Shown here one piece after another: positions 39,413-58,189 of a DNA stretch of 64,000 nt. The translations under genes were made by a program, and so were the position numbers. Every line of letters begins with the position of its first letter. Within the stretch, counting starts at the first letter, position 1. A model generated the notes under the pieces. That model was given only the letters and a program-made list of their open reading frames with translations. It had not been told where the DNA came from and did not search any database. The stretch covers positions 868,001-932,000 of the forward strand of contig BMTG01000001.1 of assembly GCA_014649555.1 (NCBI GenBank). The letters run 5' to 3'. This stretch comes from Streptomyces globisporus (lineage in GTDB: Bacteria > Actinomycetota > Actinomycetes > Streptomycetales > Streptomycetaceae).

Positions 39413-40777
39413 CTACGGTTGGTACTCCTTGTCCGGTATGGGCAGTGGTCTCTTCTCGATCGCCGCCGCCATGACGTCCGGGAAGAGATCCGGCGTACAG
39501 GCGAACGCGGGTGCGCCCAGCGCGCCGAGCGCCGCCGCGTGCTCGTGGTCGTACGCCGGCGCTCCCTCGTCGGAGAGGGCGAGCAGCGTCACGAACTGCA
39601 CGCCGGACGCCTTCATCGCGGCGACCCGCTTGAGCATCTCGTCGCGGATACCGCCCTCGTAGAGGTCGCTGATGAGGACGACGACGGTGTCCGCGGGGCG
39701 GGTGATCCTCGACTGGCAGTAGGCCAGCGCCCGGTTGATGTCGGTGCCGCCGCCGAGCTGGGTGCCGAAGAGGACGTCGACCGGGTCGTCGAGCTGGTCC
39801 GTGAGGTCGACGACCGCCGTGTCGAAGACGACGAGCCGGGTCGAGAGCGTGCGCATGGAGGCGAGCACCGCCCCGAAGACCGAGGCGTAAACGACGGACG
39901 CGGCCATCGAGCCCGACTGGTCGATGCACAGGACGATGTCCTTCTTGGCCGACCGGGAGGAGCGGCCGTAACCGATGAGGCGTTCCGGTACGACCGTGCC
40001 CGTCGCGCCCGTCGTCCCTGTCGACCCGGCCGTCGTCGCGGCGTCCGGTGCCGGGAGCGTCAGGTAGTTCTTGAGGTTGGCCCGGATGGTGCGGTCCCAG
40101 TCGATGTCCCGGTGGCGGGGCCGGCTGATCCGCGCCGAACGGTCCAGGGCCCCGGTCAGGGTGGCCCTGGTGCGGCTCTCCAGCCTCCTCTCCAGGTCCT
40201 CGACGACCTTGCTGACGACGGCGCGTGCGGTCTCCTTCGTCGTCTCGGGCATCGCCTTGTTGAGCGAGAGCAGGGTGCCGACGAGATGGACGTCCGGCTC
40301 GACCGCCTCCAGCATCTCCGGCTCCAGCAGCAGGGCCGACAGGCCGAGCCGGTCGATCGCGTCGCGCTGCATGACCTGGACCACGGAGCTGGGGAAGTAG
40401 GTCCGGATGTCGCCGAGCCAGCGGGCGACGGAGGGCGCCGACGCGCCGAGCCCCGCCGAACGGGCGCCGGTGCTCCGGCCGTTGGGCTTCTTCGCGGTGC
40501 CCCCGCCGTACAGCGCGTCCAACGCACCGTCCATCGCCGCGTCCTGGCCGGTGAGGGCGCACTCCGTGCTGTCGGCGCTGTCGGCCCCGAGCACCAACCG
40601 CCAGCGCCGCAGCCGTTCGGCGTCGGGCGGGGTGTGCGAGGCCGTGGCCGTCCGTTCCGTCGCCCGTTCCGTGGTCTCCCCCGGCGTCTGCCTCATCGGG
40701 TCCGTCCTCGTGGTCGTCCTGGCCGCGGGCGTCCTGCTCGTGGTCGTCCCGGTCGTGGTCGTCCTGGTCGTCGTCAT
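39413..40777 (-). CDS. VWA domain protein of MoxR/VWA system (YehP-like)
   Basis: 454 residues. A Thr-rich leader is followed by a helical region (RLRRWRLVLG and onward, about residues 55-260). A von Willebrand A domain with a complete metal site completes the protein: DQSGSM (DxSxS), GGGTDINRAL (Thr) and ISDLYEGG (Asp). VWA proteins next to MoxR ATPases act as adaptors that hand substrates to the ATPase. The ATG overlaps the DUF5682 stop by 4 bases (ATGA). It is third and last gene of the operon. Confidence 0.9.
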   Translation of the reverse strand: MTTTRTTTTGTTTSRTPAARTTTRTDPMRQTPGETTERATERTATASHTPPDAERLRRWRLVLGADSADSTECALTGQDAAMDGALDALYGGGTAKKPNGRSTGARSAGLGASAPSVARWLGDIRTYFPSSVVQVMQRDAIDRLGLSALLLEPEMLEAVEPDVHLVGTLLSLNKAMPETTKETARAVVSKVVEDLERRLESRTRATLTGALDRSARISRPRHRDIDWDRTIRANLKNYLTLPAPDAATTAGSTGTTGATGTVVPERLIGYGRSSRSAKKDIVLCIDQSGSMAASVVYASVFGAVLASMRTLSTRLVVFDTAVVDLTDQLDDPVDVLFGTQLGGGTDINRALAYCQSRITRPADTVVVLISDLYEGGIRDEMLKRVAAMKASGVQFVTLLALSDEGAPAYDHEHAAALGALGAPAFACTPDLFPDVMAAAIEKRPLPIPDKEYQP

Positions 40778-43182
40778 ACGGCCGCCTCCACGGGCTCGGG
40801 CGGGCGGCCGAGCAGCAGGCGCAGCACCGGTTCGACCGCGTCGGCCCTGACCGGGTCGAGACCGGGTCCGAAGCCTCCGGTCGCCGGGGCGGCGTCGTCG
40901 CGGCGGGCGCCCTCGGGGACGGGGCCACGCCGGACCAGCTCGCCGAGGGTGCGCCGCACGCCCGGTTCGTACGCGGAGAACGTGCGGCGCAGCAGCGGCA
41001 GCACATCGGTGAACTGGTCGGCGGGGACACCGGTCAGCCAGGCGTCGACGAGGCCGAGCAGCCGCTCGTCGTGGACCAGCAGCATGCCGCCGCCCGACGC
41101 TCCGCCGACGAACCCCTCGATCCAGGCGGCGGCGTCGGCGGGCGGGGTGCCGGGCGAGAGCACCAGGCCCATCAGCCGGGCCGCCTCGTCCTCCGCCAGC
41201 CGTCCTTCGTCCAGGAGCAGCCGGGTGGCCCGGCCTCTGATGATTCCGGCGACCGCGTCCCGGGCCGCCAGCTTGTGCAGGACGGCGTCCCAGCGTTCCC
41301 GCAGCCCCGTGCCCGGCTCCGCCCCGGTGTCCAGCAGGCCGATCGCCCCGTGCACCGCCTCCACCTGACCGCGCAACGCCTCGGCGCCGTCCGGGTCGAG
41401 GCCGGTGCAGGCGGACGGCAGGCCGACACAGATCCGCTCGGCGAGTCCGGCGGCGACCTCCGCGAGCGCCGCCGTGTCCGTGGAGCGCACGTCCCCGTAC
41501 CGCAGGGAGCGGGCCAGGGCGGGCAGCGCGTCCGCGAGGTGGCCGACGTCCGCGTCGAGTGCGGCCCGGTCGGCGAGGGCCTTCATCACGACGGGCAGGG
41601 CGTCGGGCAGTCCGGCGAGGAGGCAGTGTTCGGCGAGTGCCGTGACATCGGACAGCGCGGTCGCCGCCACGGCCTGCGACGCGGCCTTGGCGGTGGCGGC
41701 GGTGAGCACGGTCGTGCCCCACACCCCGGCCTCCGCGACCCGGACGTACAGTTCCGGTTCCCAGCGCAGCCGCCAGCTCTCACGGAAGGTGCCGGTGCTG
41801 CCCCGCCCCGTGACCGGGTCGCCCCAGCCGACGTCGAGGAGGCGCAGCCGGTGCAGGAGGCGGCTGCGCGCGGCGTCGGTCTCCTTGCGCAGATCGAGGT
41901 CCAGCTCGCGTTCCGACGCCTCCGGCTTGAGCCGGAGGGTCCGCAGGCTGCGGTTCAGGTCCCGTTGCAGCGGGACGGCCGGGGCGGTGTCCGGCACCTC
42001 GCCGAGGCTCTCGCCGACGATCAGCCGGTCCCGGACGAGGGTGAGCGGGACGTCGGACCCCTCGCACATGACGGCCCGCACGGCGTCGGTCGTCTCGCCC
42101 AGGCCGGCCAGCGGGCGGCCCCGGAGGGCGGCGAGCGTCTCGGCGAGCCGGACGGCCTCGATGACATGGGCGGTCGAGACGAACCGGTCCTCGCCGCGCA
42201 GCAGTCCGGCGACCTTGGTCATCCAGCGCTCGATCGGCCGGTCGGCAGCCTCGAAGAGGTGCCCGTACCAGCCGGGCGAGTCGATCCCGGCCCCGTATCC
42301 GCTCCGCCGGGCGAGGCGGCGGTGGGTCCACGGGACCCAGGTCAGATCCGTTCTGACCTTCGGGAGGCCCTTGAGCAGAGCACGGTCGGCGGCGAGGGTG
42401 GTCCGCGCGGCGAGAGCGGGGACGTGCCAGGCGCCGCAGACGACGGCGACGTCGTCCCCGAACTCCTTGCGCGCGGTTCGCAGTTGGATTCGCATGTATG
42501 CCTCGCGCACCGCGTCACGCGGCTGCCCGCCGTCGCCGTACGCCTCGCGGAGCGCGCCCATGGCCTCCGCCAGCGCGCCGAACGGGGCGAGGGTGTCACC
42601 GGGCGCGCCCTCGGAGGGGGGAGCACCGCCATCGGTCCCTCCGGTGGGTGAGCGGTGTTCGACGACGTCCTCCCACCAGCGCTCGGGGTCGTCGTATCCG
42701 GCGGTCTCGGCGAGCACCCGGATCGGGTCGACGACCGGCGTGACCTCCTCCTCTTTCTCTGTGCGCTCCGGCCCCTCCACCGGCTCCCCGGGCGCGCTTT
42801 CCTTGAGCGCGAGGGAGTGGGCGGCGGGCAGGTCGATGAAGCGGACCGGGACGTCGTGGTCGAGGGCCCACCGGATGGCCACCCACTCGGGCGAGAACGC
42901 GGCCATCGGCCAGAAGGAGGCCCGCCCCGGATCGTCCACGGCATGCGCGAGCAGCGCGACGGGCGGACGCATGTGCGGGTCGGCGGCCAGGGACAGCAGC
43001 ACGTCGCCCTCGGGCGGCCCCTCGATGAGGACGGCGGCCGGGCGGGCCGTCCGGAGCGCGGCGAGGACCGCGCGGGCCGACCCGGGGCCGTGATGCCGCA
43101 CTCCCAGGAGCCAGGGCCCGGCGACCGGTCCGGTCGCGGTGCGGCCCTGCGGTGCGGCGGCGGCCACCGCCGCACCGCTCAT
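40774..43182 (-). CDS. DUF5682 family protein (YehM-like)
   Basis: 802 residues, mostly helical. The N-terminal ~280 residues contain LLGVRHHGPGSARAVLAAL, AAVLIEGPPEGD and VAVVCGAWHVPAL. These resemble the GxxH, ExPxE and G-x-x-H elements of TraB/ChaN/EreA-like domains. The long C-terminal part has no motif that I recognise and is probably a helical scaffold. Both ends overlap neighbours by 4 bases (ATGA), so it is tightly coupled to the MoxR ATPase and VWA genes. It is probably a core subunit of their complex. Confidence 0.87.
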   Translation of the reverse strand: MSGAAVAAAAPQGRTATGPVAGPWLLGVRHHGPGSARAVLAALRTARPAAVLIEGPPEGDVLLSLAADPHMRPPVALLAHAVDDPGRASFWPMAAFSPEWVAIRWALDHDVPVRFIDLPAAHSLALKESAPGEPVEGPERTEKEEEVTPVVDPIRVLAETAGYDDPERWWEDVVEHRSPTGGTDGGAPPSEGAPGDTLAPFGALAEAMGALREAYGDGGQPRDAVREAYMRIQLRTARKEFGDDVAVVCGAWHVPALAARTTLAADRALLKGLPKVRTDLTWVPWTHRRLARRSGYGAGIDSPGWYGHLFEAADRPIERWMTKVAGLLRGEDRFVSTAHVIEAVRLAETLAALRGRPLAGLGETTDAVRAVMCEGSDVPLTLVRDRLIVGESLGEVPDTAPAVPLQRDLNRSLRTLRLKPEASERELDLDLRKETDAARSRLLHRLRLLDVGWGDPVTGRGSTGTFRESWRLRWEPELYVRVAEAGVWGTTVLTAATAKAASQAVAATALSDVTALAEHCLLAGLPDALPVVMKALADRAALDADVGHLADALPALARSLRYGDVRSTDTAALAEVAAGLAERICVGLPSACTGLDPDGAEALRGQVEAVHGAIGLLDTGAEPGTGLRERWDAVLHKLAARDAVAGIIRGRATRLLLDEGRLAEDEAARLMGLVLSPGTPPADAAAWIEGFVGGASGGGMLLVHDERLLGLVDAWLTGVPADQFTDVLPLLRRTFSAYEPGVRRTLGELVRRGPVPEGARRDDAAPATGGFGPGLDPVRADAVEPVLRLLLGRPPEPVEAAV

Positions 43183-44303
43183 GCGGACACCTCGCGGCAG
43201 GCGCGGTAGAAGTCCTTCCAGCCGTCCCGCTCGCGGACCACGGTCTCCAGATACTCCTGCCAGACCACCCGGTCCGCCGCGGGGTCCCGGACGACCGCGC
43301 CGAGGATGCCGGCCGCGACGTCGCCGGGGCGCAGGACGCCGTCGCCGAAGTGGGCGGCCAGCGCGAGGCCGCCGGTGACGACGGAGATCGCCTCGGCCGT
43401 GGAGAGCGTGCCGGAGGGGGACTTGAGCTTGGTGCGCCCGTCGGTGGTCACTCCGTCACGCAGTTCACGGAAGACCGTCACCACGCGCCGGATCTCGGTC
43501 AGACCTTCCGGGGCGGCGGGCAGGTCGAGCGAGCGGCCGATCTGGTCGACGCGCCGGGACACGATGTCGACCTCGGCGTCCGGGGTCTCGGGCAGGGGCA
43601 GCACCACGGTGTTGAACCGGCGGCGCAGGGCGCTGGACAGCTCGTTGACCCCGCGGTCCCGGTCGTTGGCCGTGGCGATGAGGTTGAATCCGCGGACGGC
43701 CTGGACCTCCTGCCCCAGCTCGGGGACGGGGAGCGTCTTCTCGGACAGGATCGTGATGAGTGAGTCCTGCACATCGGCGGGGATGCGGGTCAGCTCCTCG
43801 ACCCGGGCGGTCATGCCCTCGGACATGGCCCGCATCAGCGGGCTGGGCACCAGGGCGTCACGGCTGGGGCCGTGGGCCAGCAACTGGGCGTAGTTCCACC
43901 CGTAGCGGACGGCTTCCTCGGGCGTGCCCGCGGTGCCCTGCACGAGCAGCGTCGAGTCGCCGCTGACGGCGGCTGCGAGGTGCTCGGAGACCCAGGTCTT
44001 GGCCGTGCCGGGGACGCCGAGCAGGAGCAGCGCCCGGTCGGTGGCGAGCGTGGTCACGGCCACCTCGACCAGCCGGCGCGGGCCCACGTACTTCGGGGTG
44101 ATCACCGTCCCGTCCGGCAGGGTCCCGCCCTGCAGATAGGTGGCGACGGCCCACGGAGACAGCCGCCAACGGGCGGGCCTGGGACGGTCGTCGGCGGCCG
44201 CGAGCGCCTTCAGCTCGTCGGCGAACGCGTCCTCCGCGTGCGGGCGCAGCGCCTGGGCGCGGGTCTCCGGCTCGACGGCCTCGATGGTGTTGGACACGGT
44301 CAT
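43179..44303 (-). CDS. MoxR-family AAA ATPase (YehL-like)
   Basis: 374 residues. Walker A is GVPGTAKT in LLLLGVPGTAKTWVSEHLAA. The Walker B position reads MTARVEELTR, so the usual Asp-Glu pair is Glu-Glu. Sensor 1 is LIATANDRD and the arginine finger region LSSALRRRF. MoxR ATPases form rings that remodel proteins or insert metals with VWA partners. It is first gene of the operon MoxR-DUF5682-VWA. The ribosome-binding site is GGAGGGGGAG. The promoter has a DNA-damage-type element at 44342-44364. Confidence 0.92.
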   Translation of the reverse strand: MTVSNTIEAVEPETRAQALRPHAEDAFADELKALAAADDRPRPARWRLSPWAVATYLQGGTLPDGTVITPKYVGPRRLVEVAVTTLATDRALLLLGVPGTAKTWVSEHLAAAVSGDSTLLVQGTAGTPEEAVRYGWNYAQLLAHGPSRDALVPSPLMRAMSEGMTARVEELTRIPADVQDSLITILSEKTLPVPELGQEVQAVRGFNLIATANDRDRGVNELSSALRRRFNTVVLPLPETPDAEVDIVSRRVDQIGRSLDLPAAPEGLTEIRRVVTVFRELRDGVTTDGRTKLKSPSGTLSTAEAISVVTGGLALAAHFGDGVLRPGDVAAGILGAVVRDPAADRVVWQEYLETVVRERDGWKDFYRACREVSA

Positions 44304-44341: not shown

Positions 44342-44364
44342 ACCGTGCACCATGCCACTGACAA
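44342..44364 (-). promoter_or_regulatory. RecA-independent DNA-damage-type (PafBC) promoter of the MoxR operon
   Basis: On the minus strand: TTGTCAGTG (44356-44364), 8 bases, then CACGGT (44342-44347). The first element matches TTGTCRGTG exactly and the spacing is the required 8. The -10 keeps A2 and T6 of TANNNT but has C for the first T. The start codon is about 38 bases downstream. Confidence 0.72.
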
Positions 44365-44425
44365 CGGGCCCTGACCGCAGGTCAGAGCCCGATGACGAAC
44401 GGTTGCCCCCTCCCCCGGAGGCCCG

Positions 44426-44451
44426 CCGCCCCGGTCGGCCGACCGGGGCGG
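44426..44451 (-). terminator. Terminator of the MmpS-like lipoprotein gene
   Basis: Perfect 26-base palindrome (CCGCCCCGGTCGG and complement), 10 bases beyond the stop. Confidence 0.75.
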
Positions 44452-44461
44452 ATCGGCCCGG

Positions 44462-44887
44462 TCAGCCCACGATCGGCGACACGGCGACGCAGCCGCCCGC
44501 CGTGATCATGCCCTCGCCCTTCGCCTCCTTGATGACCTTGCCCTTGTAGGTGATGGAGCAGGTGACGTCGGCGCCGCCCGCGTCCAGGGCGATCGGCGAG
44601 ACGGCGGGCGGCATGATGCCGCGCAGTTCGACGGTCTTCTTCCACGGCAGGGCCGGCTTGGTGACGGTCTCCAGCTTGGGCTCCATCGCCTCGCCGCCGC
44701 CCCCGTGGTACGTGATCTCGTCGACGCCCGTGCCGGTGACCTCGTACGTGACCTCGTAGGTCTCGTCCACGGTCTTGTCGACCGCCTTGCCGACCGCCTC
44801 GTCCACGGACTCGGCCGAGCAGGCCCCCAGTCCGAGCACGAGGACGGCGACCGCGAGGGCGCGGGTGGTGCGGGTGGTGCGGTTCAT
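44462..44887 (-). CDS. MmpS-like lipoprotein
   Basis: 141 residues. The signal peptide ends in lipobox LGLGACSA. The mature domain resembles MmpS-type transport-accessory proteins: YEVTGTGVDEITYHG, LPWKKTVELRG and ADVTCSITYKGKVIKEA, a small beta-sandwich with a conserved Cys. It is exported and membrane-attached. The ATG at 44887 follows GGGGGGATC. It lies between the two operons of the MoxR/VWA system but has its own terminator and no clear link to them. Confidence 0.82.
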   Translation of the reverse strand: MNRTTRTTRALAVAVLVLGLGACSAESVDEAVGKAVDKTVDETYEVTYEVTGTGVDEITYHGGGGEAMEPKLETVTKPALPWKKTVELRGIMPPAVSPIALDAGGADVTCSITYKGKVIKEAKGEGMITAGGCVAVSPIVG

Positions 44888-44980
44888 CTGGGATCCCCCC
44901 TGGATCGGTCCGGGCACGGATCCGTTCCGTACGCGGAGACCGCAGAGAAACGCAAAGGCAGGGCAAAGTCAAATCTCTCC

Positions 44981-45059
44981 TCGGACCGCAGCTTCGCAGG
45001 TCGGAGCGGGATCGGAGCAGGTCGGAGGGGATTGTCAGTGGTGCCCCCTACCGTCGGAG
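44981..45059. repeat. Helically phased TCGGAG repeats before the SWIM gene
   Basis: TCGGAC at 44981, then TCGGAG at 45001, 45012, 45022 and 45054. The intervals 20, 11, 10 and 32 are close to whole helical turns. They flank the promoter and may be a protein-binding array; the last copy also serves as the only Shine-Dalgarno-like sequence. Confidence 0.45.
45032..45054 (+). promoter_or_regulatory. RecA-independent DNA-damage-type (PafBC) promoter of the SWIM operon
   Basis: TTGTCAGTG (45032-45040), exactly 8 bases, then TACCGT (45049-45054). This fits the full TTGTCRGTG-N8-TANNNT motif known for RecA/LexA-independent damage induction in mycobacteria. Transcription would start at about the ATG (45062), so the mRNA is leaderless or nearly so. 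Confidence 0.82.
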
Positions 45060-45061
45060 AC

Positions 45062-46516
45062 ATGCAGCTATCTCACGGGGGAGAGTCCTCGCCCACCGGT
45101 GCCCCGGTGGCGCGCTGGTCGGTGGAGCAGGTGCTGGCCCTGGCTCCTGACGCGGCATCACGCAAGGCGGGCACGCGCCTCGGCGCGGCCGGTCCGTGGT
45201 CCGGTACGGGGTGCGATGCGTCGGGCGCGGTGTGGGGCCTGTGCAAGGGCAGCGGAAGCACGCCGTATCGGACGGTGGTCGACACCACGGGGCCTGCCTA
45301 CGCGTGCAGTTGCCCGAGCAGGAAGTTCCCGTGCAAGCACGCGCTGGGGCTGTTGCTGCTCCTGGCGTCGGGCGGCGACGCGTTCCGGCCCGCCGAGCCG
45401 GCCGACTGGGCCGAGGAGTGGCTCGCGGGCCGGCGCGCACGCGCGGCGCAGAAGAGCGGTCCTGCGGCGGGCGGCGACAGCGCGCGGGGCCCCGCCGACC
45501 CGGTCGCCGCCAGGAAGCGGGCGGAGCGCCGCGCGGAGCGGGTCACGGGCGGCGCCCAGGAGCTGGAACAGCGCCTGGGCGACCTGCTGCGCGGCGGACT
45601 GGCCGCGACCGACCGCTCGGGGTACGGCCTGTGGGAGGAGACCGCGGCTCGCATGGTCGACGCCCAGGCCCCCGGTCTCGCCGCCCGGGTGCGGGAGTTG
45701 GGCGCGATCACCGGGTCCGGGCCGGGCTGGCCGGTCCGTTTGCTGGAGGAGTGCGGCCTGCTCCATCTGCTGGACACGGCCTGGCTCGGCCGGGACCGGC
45801 TGCCGGATCCGCTGGCCGCGACCGTCCGGACGAGAGTGGGGCTGCCCATGTCCGCCGAAGGCCCCCCGGTCCGCGACCAGTGGCTGGTCCTCGCGCAGTA
45901 CGACACCCCGGACGGCAAGATCGTCGCCCGCCGGATCTGGCTGTACGGGCGGGGGTCGGGCCGCACCGCGCTGCTCCTCTCGTTCGGTGCCGCGGGCCGG
46001 TCCCCGGCGCAGGCACTGCAGGTGGGGGCCACGATCGACGCCGAGCTGACGCCGTATCCGGGCGGCGGGCAGCTCCGGGCGGAGCTGGGCGAGCAGTTCG
46101 GGGCAACGACCGCGGCCGGTCCCCCGCCGGGGATCGCCGCGGCGGCCGCCCCGGCCGTCTACGGGAACGCCCTGCGGGACGACCCCTGGCTGGACGCCTG
46201 GCCGGTCACCCTGCGCGATGTCATACCCGTGCCGTCCAAGGACGGCTGGCAGCTGACCGACGTCCGCACGGACGCCCATCGCGACGCCCACGCGGGCACC
46301 CGCACCGACGCTCGCACCGGATCCGCGCTGCCGATCGCCCCGGCCGCGCTGTCCCGGCCGGGCCTGTGGAAGCTCGTCGCCCTGTCCGGCGGCGGCCCGG
46401 TCACGGTGTTCGGCGAGGTCGGCCACCGCGGCTTCGACCCGTTCGCGGCCTGGGACCCGGGCGAGGGGGAGAAAGGTGGAGGCACCACGGGCGGGTCGGT
46501 CGTCCAACTGGTCTGA
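45062..46516 (+). CDS. SWIM zinc-finger protein (YehQ-like)
   Basis: 484 residues. The SWIM zinc finger CxCx6CxH is in YACSCPSRKFPCKHALG at about residues 79-95, predicted to bind nucleic acid or protein. The rest has no recognised domain; it includes a Lys/Arg-rich helix around residue 150. It is first gene of a two-gene operon with DUF5691, divergent from the MoxR operon. The ATG at 45062 coincides with the predicted transcription start; a GTG at 45041 would lie inside the promoter. Confidence 0.9.
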   Translation: MQLSHGGESSPTGAPVARWSVEQVLALAPDAASRKAGTRLGAAGPWSGTGCDASGAVWGLCKGSGSTPYRTVVDTTGPAYACSCPSRKFPCKHALGLLLLLASGGDAFRPAEPADWAEEWLAGRRARAAQKSGPAAGGDSARGPADPVAARKRAERRAERVTGGAQELEQRLGDLLRGGLAATDRSGYGLWEETAARMVDAQAPGLAARVRELGAITGSGPGWPVRLLEECGLLHLLDTAWLGRDRLPDPLAATVRTRVGLPMSAEGPPVRDQWLVLAQYDTPDGKIVARRIWLYGRGSGRTALLLSFGAAGRSPAQALQVGATIDAELTPYPGGGQLRAELGEQFGATTAAGPPPGIAAAAAPAVYGNALRDDPWLDAWPVTLRDVIPVPSKDGWQLTDVRTDAHRDAHAGTRTDARTGSALPIAPAALSRPGLWKLVALSGGGPVTVFGEVGHRGFDPFAAWDPGEGEKGGGTTGGSVVQLV

Positions 46517-46678: not shown

Positions 46679-48346
46679 ATGCCTCACACGACCAGCCCCA
46701 CCGCAACCACCACCGGCACCACCACACCCACTTCCGCATCCGCTTCCGTCGACTCCCTCTCCCTCCCCTGGGAGGAACTGGTCACCTCCGCTCTCCTGGG
46801 GACCGACCGCCGTCCTCCGGCACCACGCGGCGCCCCCGTACCGGCCGATGCCCCCGCGGCTCTGCTGGACGCCGCCGCGCTGCACACCGTGCGGCGGCGG
46901 GCCGGGCTGCTGCCCGCCGTGCCGGAGGCCCGGCCCGAGCCCGCCGCCCCGGACCCGCGCCCGGCGCTCCCCGAGGCCGCCCGGCACCGGCTCGCCCACC
47001 TGCTGGCCGACCGCTCCGCACCCTCGGGCGGCGGGCGGCGCGGGACCGCGCCCGACCTCACCGAGCTCATCCCGCAGTGGCTGGCCATCGCCAACCGGCG
47101 GGGCTTCCGCGCCCCGGCGGCCCTGCTGCCCGCGCTGCTGGACGCCGCCCGCGCGCGGACGGACCTTCGCCCGCAGGCGCTCGCGTTCGCCGGTCCGCGC
47201 GGGATGTGGCTGGCCGGGCTGAACCCCGACTGGAAGTTCGCCCTGCGGGGCTCCGCGAGCGGTGCGCCGCAGCCCGATCTCACGGACCCGGACGCGGTGG
47301 CCCGGCTGTGGGAGGAGGGGCTGTTCGCGGAGCGGGTCGCGCTGCTCGACGCCGTACGGGCACAGGATCCCCCCGCCGCGCTCGCCCTGCTCGCCACCAC
47401 CTGGCCGGCCGAACGGGCCGAGGACCGGCTGATGTTCCTGGATTCCCTGCGGTCGGGGCTGGGCGGCGCCGACGAGCCGTTCCTGGAGCAGGCCCTGTCC
47501 GACCGCAGCCGCAACGTCCGCGCCACTGCGGCCGAACTGCTGTCCGCCCTGCCCGAGTCGGCACTCGCCGGACGGATGGCGGCCCGCGCGCTGTCCTGCG
47601 TGCATCCGGACCGTACGGGGGCCGTCGCCTCCATCGCCGTGGAGGCGCCGCACGAATGCGACGCGGACATGCAGCGCGACGGCGTCATGGCGGTCCCGCC
47701 CACGGGACGTGGCGAACGGTCCTGGTGGCTCGGGCAGTTGGTGGAGGCCACCCCGCTCGGCGTCTGGGAGGAACGGTTCGGCGAGCGTCCGGCCGACGAG
47801 ATCGTGGCCCTGCCCGTGGCCGACGACTGGGCCGACGAACTGCACACCGCCTGGTGCCGGGCGGCGGCCCGGCAGCGGAATCCGCGGTGGTCCCGGGCCC
47901 TGCTCGGGCGTCCGTCGGAGCCGGTGACGAGCGGCTCCGGGACGGCCTCGATCGCCGAGCGCTCGAAGCTCCTGGCCATTCTGGACGAGGGGGAACGTGC
48001 CTCCTGGGTCGCCGAGTTCATCGCGGCGCACGGCCTGTCGGAGGCGTTCCAGCTGCTCGGGGTGTGCACGGTCCCCTGGGCCGGGCCGCTCGGGCGTGCG
48101 GTGGTCGACGCGCTCGACATCGCGCGGGACGGCGGGAGTTATCCGTGGAGCTTCAGCGGGGTGATGGGCCTCGCCGAACGCTGTCTGGATCCGGCCGAGG
48201 CCGACCGGCTGGAGGTCCTGACGGCCACGCAGGACGAGCAGGAGGGCGCGTCACCGGGCGCCGGCGGCTACTGGTCCGAGGCCTTCCAGCGTCTGGTCTC
48301 CACGCTGCGGCTGCGCGCCGCGATGGAGGCGGAGCTGATGGGCTGA
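46679..48346 (+). CDS. DUF5691 family protein
   Basis: 555 residues. After a Thr-rich leader the conserved part starts WEELVTSALLGTDRRPP. It is largely alpha-helical with HEAT-like segments, for example QALSDRSRNVRATAAELLSA and LLATTWPAERAEDRLMFLDS. No catalytic motif is seen. In the families I know, DUF5691 genes accompany SWIM, MoxR, DUF5682 and VWA genes, so it is probably a scaffold or adaptor of that system. The ATG has GGGAGGGGAAAG upstream. It is 162 bases after the SWIM gene. Confidence 0.88.
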   Translation: MPHTTSPTATTTGTTTPTSASASVDSLSLPWEELVTSALLGTDRRPPAPRGAPVPADAPAALLDAAALHTVRRRAGLLPAVPEARPEPAAPDPRPALPEAARHRLAHLLADRSAPSGGGRRGTAPDLTELIPQWLAIANRRGFRAPAALLPALLDAARARTDLRPQALAFAGPRGMWLAGLNPDWKFALRGSASGAPQPDLTDPDAVARLWEEGLFAERVALLDAVRAQDPPAALALLATTWPAERAEDRLMFLDSLRSGLGGADEPFLEQALSDRSRNVRATAAELLSALPESALAGRMAARALSCVHPDRTGAVASIAVEAPHECDADMQRDGVMAVPPTGRGERSWWLGQLVEATPLGVWEERFGERPADEIVALPVADDWADELHTAWCRAAARQRNPRWSRALLGRPSEPVTSGSGTASIAERSKLLAILDEGERASWVAEFIAAHGLSEAFQLLGVCTVPWAGPLGRAVVDALDIARDGGSYPWSFSGVMGLAERCLDPAEADRLEVLTATQDEQEGASPGAGGYWSEAFQRLVSTLRLRAAMEAELMG

Positions 48347-54837: not shown

Positions 54838-54860
54838 AGTCTAGGCCGACGGACTGACAA
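54838..54860 (-). promoter_or_regulatory. RecA-independent DNA-damage-type (PafBC) promoter of pcrA
   Basis: On the minus strand: TTGTCAGTC (54852-54860; 8 of 9 match TTGTCRGTG), 8 bases, then TAGACT (54838-54843). The start codon at 54828 is about 10 bases downstream, giving a very short or absent leader. Confidence 0.75.
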
Positions 54861-57109: not shown

Positions 57110-58189
57110 GTGGCAGCCCACCGCAGGTCAGCTCACCGAAAACCGAAGCAGCGCCCGCTCACCGGCCCTGCTGCCCGCACCGCCGCCACCCTGGCGCTCG
57201 CCGGGGCCGCCACCGCCGGCTCGGTCACCGGGGCGGGCGCGGCCCCCGCCGAACCGGCCCCCACCGCGGCGCAGGTCAAAGCCCAGGTCGACCGGCTCTA
57301 CCACGACGCCGAGGTCGCCACCGAGAAGTACAACGGGGCGAAGGAGAGGGCGGACGCCGCCACCCGCACCGTCGACGCCCTGACCGACGAGGCCGCCCGC
57401 CGCACCGACCGCCTCAACACCGCCCGGCACGCGCTGGGTTCGCTGGCCACCGCGCAGTACCGTTCCGGCACCCTGGACCCGGCCCTGCAACTGGCGCTCT
57501 CCTCCGACCCCGACGCCTATCTGGAACGCGCCTCCTACCTCGACCGGGCCGGCGACCGGCAGACCGGGCTGCTGCGGAACATCAAGCGGCAGGTCTCCCG
57601 GATCGCCCAGGTCAAGTCCCGCGCCGACGAGGAGACCGAGCGCCTCGCCGCCCGCCGCACCGAACTGCGCGAGCACCGCACCGCGATCCGCACGAAGCTG
57701 ACCGACGCCCGGAAGCTGCTGGACACCCTGACGGCCGACGAGCGCGCCGACTTCGAACGCTCCGCCGACGCCCGGCACGGCGGCGGCCCGGCCCACGCCG
57801 ACCGCTCCACCACCCGCAGCGGCCCGGTGGCCGCTCCCAACTCCCGTGCCGGGCAGGCCATCGCCTTCGCCCACGGCGCGATCGGCAAGCCGTACGTCTG
57901 GGGCGCGACCGGCCCGAACGCCTTCGACTGCTCCGGCCTCACCCAGGCGGCCTGGAAGGCGGCGGGCGTGAGCCTGCCCCGCACCACCTACACCCAGATC
58001 AACGCCGGACAGCGCATCCCGCGCTCTCAACTGGCCCCCGGCGACCTGGTGTTCTTCTACTCCGGGATCAGCCACGTCGGCCTCTACATCGGCGGCGGCC
58101 AGATGATCCACGCCCCGCGGCCGGGAGCACCGGTGCGCATCGCGCCGATCGACCAGATGCCGTTCGCGGGCGCGACCCGGGTGGCGTAG
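57110..58189 (+). CDS. NlpC/P60 cell-wall endopeptidase, second copy
   Basis: 359 residues with the same architecture as the gene at 55294. It has an N-terminal export signal (AARTAATLALAGAATAG), a coiled coil (about residues 45-215) and an NlpC/P60 domain with the catalytic Cys in NAFDCSGLTQAAW and the His in GISHVGLYIGG. The linker is shorter and not Gly-rich. The GTG at 57110 follows GAGGAAGG. A candidate -10, TAGCGT, lies at 57047. Unlike the first copy there is no ydaO riboswitch in front of it. Confidence 0.9.
   Translation: MAAHRRSAHRKPKQRPLTGPAARTAATLALAGAATAGSVTGAGAAPAEPAPTAAQVKAQVDRLYHDAEVATEKYNGAKERADAATRTVDALTDEAARRTDRLNTARHALGSLATAQYRSGTLDPALQLALSSDPDAYLERASYLDRAGDRQTGLLRNIKRQVSRIAQVKSRADEETERLAARRTELREHRTAIRTKLTDARKLLDTLTADERADFERSADARHGGGPAHADRSTTRSGPVAAPNSRAGQAIAFAHGAIGKPYVWGATGPNAFDCSGLTQAAWKAAGVSLPRTTYTQINAGQRIPRSQLAPGDLVFFYSGISHVGLYIGGGQMIHAPRPGAPVRIAPIDQMPFAGATRVA

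Follow-up and report, generated by a model that had tools for sequence, protein, structure and literature searches.

A stretch of 64,000 nucleotides from Streptomyces globisporus (assembly GCA_014649555.1, contig BMTG01000001.1, positions 868,001 to 932,000; the whole stretch is hereafter called the window) raises the question why two divergent operons, which encode the MoxR arm and the SWIM arm of a putative protein machine, are each preceded by the same promoter-like motif, and whether this motif links the machine to DNA damage. Judged from sequence, it is likely that both sites are promoters of the two operons of one five-protein machine, that they belong to the class of RecA-independent DNA-damage promoters (RecA-NDp), and that they are driven by damage via PafBC. 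This interpretation had been put forward in an earlier note made from the letters of the window and is, on the whole, probably correct; the observation behind it was confirmed and is stronger than the sequence alone could show.

The window was scanned with the pattern TTGTCRGTG-N8-TANNNT, allowing up to two mismatches, and the result was compared with 100 shuffles. The predicted SWIM-arm promoter, of the RecA-NDp/PafBC type, lies on the forward strand at 45032..45054 and has no mismatch (TTGTCAGTG at 45032-45040, N8, TACCGT at 45049-45054), in agreement with the full match given in the earlier note. The predicted MoxR-arm promoter was found on the reverse strand at 44342..44364, where the same note had placed the 9-mer with N8 and CACGGT, and has one mismatch to the pattern (TTGTCAGTG at 44364-44356, N8 with TG at its end, CACGGT at 44347-44342), namely C in place of T as the opening base of the -10 element. 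The 9-mer TTGTCRGTG is exact in both arms, and the two boxes of these divergent operons are about 0.7 kb apart.

The forward operon starts with the gene of a SWIM zinc-finger protein of 484 aa (45062..46516, forward strand; Pfam SWIM, 1.4e-5), followed by that of a DUF5691 protein of 555 aa (46679..48346, forward strand; Pfam, 3.6e-175). The ATG of the SWIM gene at 45062 sits 7 nt past the -10 element, and its mRNA is therefore predicted to be leaderless, with a predicted transcription start at about 45061-45062. On the reverse strand lie the genes of a MoxR-type AAA+ ATPase of 374 aa (43179..44303; Pfam AAA_5, 1.1e-37), a DUF5682 protein of 802 aa (40774..43182; Pfam, 4.7e-294), and a CoxE-like VWA protein of 454 aa (39413..40777; VWA_CoxE, Pfam, 2.3e-60), each of the latter two overlapping the preceding gene by 4 nt. 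The MoxR start at 44303 is 38 nt past its -10 element and is preceded by a Shine-Dalgarno-like GGAGGGGG at 44315-44308.

Conservation of the boxes within Streptomyces was determined for 110 loci including the window, which comprised the best 30 of 56 genomes with the SWIM protein and the best 80 of 575 related stretches; the two sets may share species, the overlap was kept, and close relatives among them are not independent. A SWIM-arm box was present in 110/110 loci (102 exact, 8 with one mismatch), and so was a MoxR-arm box (107 with one mismatch, 3 with two), and among 2,589 control windows (290 bases each) 1 had a box with up to one mismatch and 9 had one with up to two. Conservation upstream of the orthologous Streptomyces operons, which the earlier note had left as a check on its idea, thus did not refute the idea for either arm. 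The 80 loci of the named GTDB set gave the same picture (SWIM arm: 73 exact and 7 with one mismatch; MoxR arm: 77 with one mismatch and 3 with two). The -10 element has the form TANNNT in the SWIM arm and CANNNT in the MoxR arm at all 110 loci, and the SWIM start follows the -10 element by 7 nt in 104 loci and by 6 nt in the other 6. The SWIM-arm boxes are nearly invariant and much of the spacer is variable, the 110 loci having 66 distinct 23-mers. Spacer length was evaluated for the exact 9-mer across 2.46 Mb of strand from the 80 Streptomyces loci, where it occurs 163 times: 78 copies are followed by TANNNT and 77 by CANNNT at a spacer of 8, and none by either at spacers of 4-7 or 9-14.

For the wider comparison the SWIM arm was searched in the leaderless geometry with up to two mismatches. 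Among the other Streptomycetaceae (20 loci from 14 genera, fetched from 49 non-Streptomyces genomes with a match) the box was present in 19 loci, 6 of them exact, 6 with one mismatch, and 7 with two; the locus L225 failed the strict test for start and frame even though its box is exact and followed by an ATG after 7 nt. From the 75 genomes with DUF5682, 20 outside Streptomyces were fetched, as were 21 of the 34 f3 genomes with DUF5691. In a second family (f68), in which a single operon with a single box holds the genes, the box was found in 9 of the 12 loci with a SWIM match, one more locus ending before SWIM. The box was present in 4/14 f3 loci outside g4, and all 7 g4 loci of f3 have an upstream box with 1-2 mismatches off the leaderless position, which may represent a variant promoter of this lineage. 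The g4 loci (L160, L196-L200, L205) have a TGTCGGTG box before SWIM whose -10 element reads TANANN followed by T, and their start is not leaderless. The three f69 loci had 3, 4, and 3 mismatches and the single f91 locus had 3; no box was seen near SWIM in the single f77 locus; and among four loci from outside the class one had 3 mismatches in the leaderless geometry and one a two-mismatch site elsewhere upstream. Conservation of the box thus fades beyond the Streptomycetaceae and f68. As a control, 36 of the 21,774 ATG/GTG codons in L218-L257 had a box with up to two mismatches at that distance, a number that includes the true sites. Orthologues that share about 36-57% protein identity have the box equally far from the start.

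The MoxR arm has a narrower distribution. With up to two mismatches its box was found in 11 of the 13 other Streptomycetaceae loci that have MoxR within the fetched stretch (7 more loci lack MoxR there), vs none of the 17 MoxR genes in L238-L254, where MoxR lies downstream of SWIM in the same direction wherever SWIM was found; L255-L257 have no MoxR-arm box either, and SWIM is missing there or occurs only within a long frame. This fits a split of the operon with gain of a second promoter: the ancestor probably had one operon with one such promoter, and after the split in the line of the Streptomycetaceae the MoxR half would have gained a promoter of its own.

The genome-wide scan suggested in the earlier note was carried out for the own genome, where the motif is exact at 24 sites and has up to one mismatch at 89, as opposed to 10 for the reversed pattern. 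The genes behind these sites were chosen by open frame and third-codon-position GC content rather than by a gene finder. According to Pfam, 8 of the 24 exact sites precede repair or replication genes (RecA, UvrB, RuvC, Pol III beta, UDG, EndoIII, an HHH_RecD2 protein, and a DEAD helicase), one is that of the SWIM gene, and 5 precede other families (amine oxidase, AAA_16, glyoxalase, transport permease, DUF4253). At 9 exact sites the downstream gene had no Pfam match at E 0.001, and L012, with a longest frame of 57 aa, fell outside the scan. One of these nine (L002) is probably the orthologue of the macrodomain protein SCO6735, because the primers given in PMC5087735 match its promoter and the start of its protein. 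Another of the nine (L020:118-1494, reverse strand) has a SWIM finger below threshold (18.4 bits vs a cut-off of 19.6), its ATG lying 6 nt from the box. Eight of the 65 one-mismatch sites were read (L025-L030, pcrA, and a DUF4132 operon); L025-L030 comprise UvrD, exonuclease VII, and MoxR as well as three that are not repair genes by Pfam (an ABC transporter, a sigma factor, and one without a family). At 13/24 exact sites an open frame begins with ATG or GTG 5-9 nt past the -10 element.

The deviating -10 element of the MoxR arm was also considered against this genome. Among the own-genome sites with the 9-mer, TG occurs upstream in 12/29 of those without T at -12 (9 at -15/-14 and 3 at -14/-13), compared with 0/24 of those with T at -12 (Fisher p = 2e-4); the TG of the MoxR arm is at -14/-13. 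This comparison, made post hoc in one genome, suggests that the sites with TG and without T at -12 form an extended -10 subclass.

A paralogous operon in the same genome (L258, C2:88000-104500) encodes a DUF4132 protein, a 1,726-aa protein, a MoxR protein, a DUF5682-VWA fusion, and a 659-aa protein. This DUF4132 operon was present in 17/41 Streptomyces genomes, in one by a fragment only. The box count covered the 18 DUF4132 matches except the fragment (L276) and a second copy (L277), and an upstream box was found in 16/16 of these loci (9 exact, 5 with one mismatch, 2 with two) at 37-41 or 83-92 nt from the first gene. The control of 16/1,617 random windows of 430 bases with up to two mismatches is an overestimate because some of these windows overlap true promoters.

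The motif as such is already known from Streptomyces. PMC2375139 cites it for the UV-inducible recA promoter of Streptomyces rimosus and reports variants in S. coelicolor and S. avermitilis, with 67 S. coelicolor genes, those for DNA repair included. SCO6735 of S. coelicolor carries the promoter and shows a 5-fold rise after UV (PMC5087735), the promoter claim being repeated in PMC9411070, and according to PMC8223512 the motif reaches other Actinobacteria and resembles that of PafBC. The name of a mycobacterial motif used in the earlier note was therefore too narrow, given S. rimosus recA and SCO6735, while its assignment to the RecA-independent class stood, as repair genes share the box. The present sites resemble the RecA-NDp promoter of Actinobacteria in the 9-mer TTGTCRGTG, the N8 spacer, the -10 element of the SWIM arm, the repair genes downstream, and the short distance of 7 or 6 nt between the -10 element and the SWIM start, which is like that of SCO6735 by the primer sequence in PMC5087735. 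They differ in the C at -12 with TG upstream in the MoxR arm and in that their target is an uncharacterised AAA+ machine. A link of MoxR/SWIM-type machines to this promoter or to damage was not found in literature searches made mostly at the level of search results; PMC6882752 names MoxR and PafBC in unrelated talks.

Three points weigh against the reading as damage-driven PafBC promoters. The count in the window alone, four sites with up to two mismatches, is mildly above chance (mean of 1.16 in the shuffles, of which 4/100 reach four), and the weight of the case rests on conservation and whole-genome counts. The mycobacterial PafBC motif is seemingly not conserved in S. venezuelae (PMC9380542, of 2022), and according to that paper the existence of a RecA/LexA-independent damage response in Streptomyces remains to be shown. 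Finally, the presence of pafC is not discriminating, because HTH_PafC matches occur in 40/40 genomes and in the E. coli control.

It is conceivable, although unlikely, that sites of the RecA-NDp class are read here by ClgR or another factor, or serve constitutive use by the housekeeping sigma factor, PafBC being dispensable. PMC5656591, which gives the consensus, proposes that ClgR recognises the RecA-independent P1 promoter in M. smegmatis, and the induction of repair genes is impaired without ClgR; the failure of an initial search to recover the mycobacterial PafBC motif in S. venezuelae (PMC9380542) would likewise agree with another reader. The 9-mer and the N8 spacing, however, are those of the RecA-independent promoter bound by PafBC, and PafBC is reported to work via RecA-NDp (PMC6789036). 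The pafBC genes are present beside pafA, in the own-genome order pafA, FKBP gene, pafB, pafC, tatA, tatC (named partly by reading translations; Pfam Pup_ligase, WYL, HTH_PafC), and the alignment in the PafBC structure paper (PMC6789036) holds two S. coelicolor sequences. For M. smegmatis without pafBC, PMC5656591 lists lower MoxR1 and MoxR2 and also less of a von Willebrand factor protein, which need not correspond to the present genes.

A somewhat less probable alternative concerns the machine and not its promoters, which would then serve an anti-phage or conflict system using DNA damage as an alarm, in the manner of the MoxR-vWA ternary systems (Kaur et al., 2020). MoxR-vWA pairs form the core of these predicted conflict systems (PMC7159879, in which the word SWIM does not occur), the machine here shares the MoxR and VWA core, and the paralogous DUF4132 system is patchy in its distribution. 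On the other hand, no VMAP, iSTAND, FtsH, or beta-propeller was among the Pfam matches of the five proteins (the VMAP and iSTAND profiles were not searched by name), the bpMoxR match is below its cut-off, and 0/6 proteins of the system locus matched a PADLOC model at E 0.01. Unlike patchy defence genes, SWIM was present in 56/61 Streptomyces genomes and DUF5691 in 59/61 Streptomycetaceae genomes, and the box is common to core repair genes. That the boxes are chance or inherited sequence without promoter function, as the shuffles that reach the site number of the window and the dependence among closely related loci might suggest, is very improbable given the constant start distance in divergent orthologues, the single spacer length in use, and the free spacer bases in the SWIM arm.

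If both sites are PafBC-dependent damage promoters, DNA damage would cause PafBC, which in mycobacteria is reported to be activated by single-stranded DNA (PMC11804915), to let the housekeeping RNA polymerase start at both, so that the two halves of the machine would be made together, SWIM from a leaderless mRNA and MoxR from an mRNA whose short leader holds a strong Shine-Dalgarno sequence; the MoxR -10 element, which lacks T at -12, would be aided by the TG just upstream. A conserved damage promoter before both operons suggests that the machine is part of the DNA-damage response. MoxR and VWA may form a remodelling ATPase aimed by SWIM/DUF5691, a role proposed from the SWIM finger and an OB-like C-terminal region, and the machine may act on nucleic-acid or nucleoprotein substrates in repair. 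A joint function of SWIM and DUF5691 is supported by 12 loci from other lineages in which both occur within one reading frame (894-1,104 residues), namely L160, L196-L200, L205-L207, L252, L253, and L257. The promoters offer a regulatory clue to the role of DUF5682 and DUF5691, conserved proteins without known function, for which a full-text literature search by name found no paper. The open question on the RecA/LexA-independent response in S. venezuelae becomes directly testable, and the two promoters about 0.7 kb apart provide, with the paralogous operon as a third reporter, a compact test case.

Among known systems, the yehI-yehK-yehL-yehM-yehP-yehQ-yehR cluster of E. coli K-12 encodes homologs of the three core proteins together, as here (MoxR 39% to YehL, the DUF5682 protein 27% to YehM, VWA 34% to YehP), and YehQ, YehI, and YehR are annotated with SWIM fingers, as DUF4132, and as a lipoprotein, respectively. 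The SWIM protein aligns with YehQ over the zinc motif only (E 0.20, not significant), the DUF4132 gene of the second operon has no significant BLAST match to YehI (E 0.018), the E. coli control has no DUF5691 match, and the gene order is unlike that in the window. As for the chaperone pairs NorQ-NorD and RavA-ViaA, MoxR here is nearest by sequence in the PDB to Midasin and NorQ, and VWA is weakly like ViaA, far under the cut-off of that model; the system differs from these pairs in its extra SWIM, DUF5691, and DUF5682 subunits and, by sequence, in its damage-type promoters. Tentatively, and with less confidence than for the promoters, Actinobacteria might own a dedicated damage-induced AAA+ remodeller of damaged or stalled nucleoprotein, made up of MoxR, VWA, DUF5682, DUF5691, and a SWIM/OB-fold subunit that binds nucleic acid; two or more paralogous versions would then belong to the PafBC regulon, and E. 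coli yehLMP would be a distant version.

Between the two arms lies a small lipoprotein-like gene of 141 aa (44462..44887, reverse strand; Mycobact_memb, 19.8 bits, under the cut-off of 21). In E. coli, too, a lipoprotein gene (yehR) comes after yehQ, the likeness to 44462-44887 being one of description. The two other sites in the window lie apart from the MoxR/SWIM system. A variant box with one mismatch (TTGTCAGTC-N8-TAGACT, 54838..54860, reverse strand) stands 9 nt 5' of the ATG of the pcrA/uvrD helicase gene (54828-52390, reverse strand) and is a possible companion in the regulon, and the fourth site, with two mismatches, is at 57120-57142.
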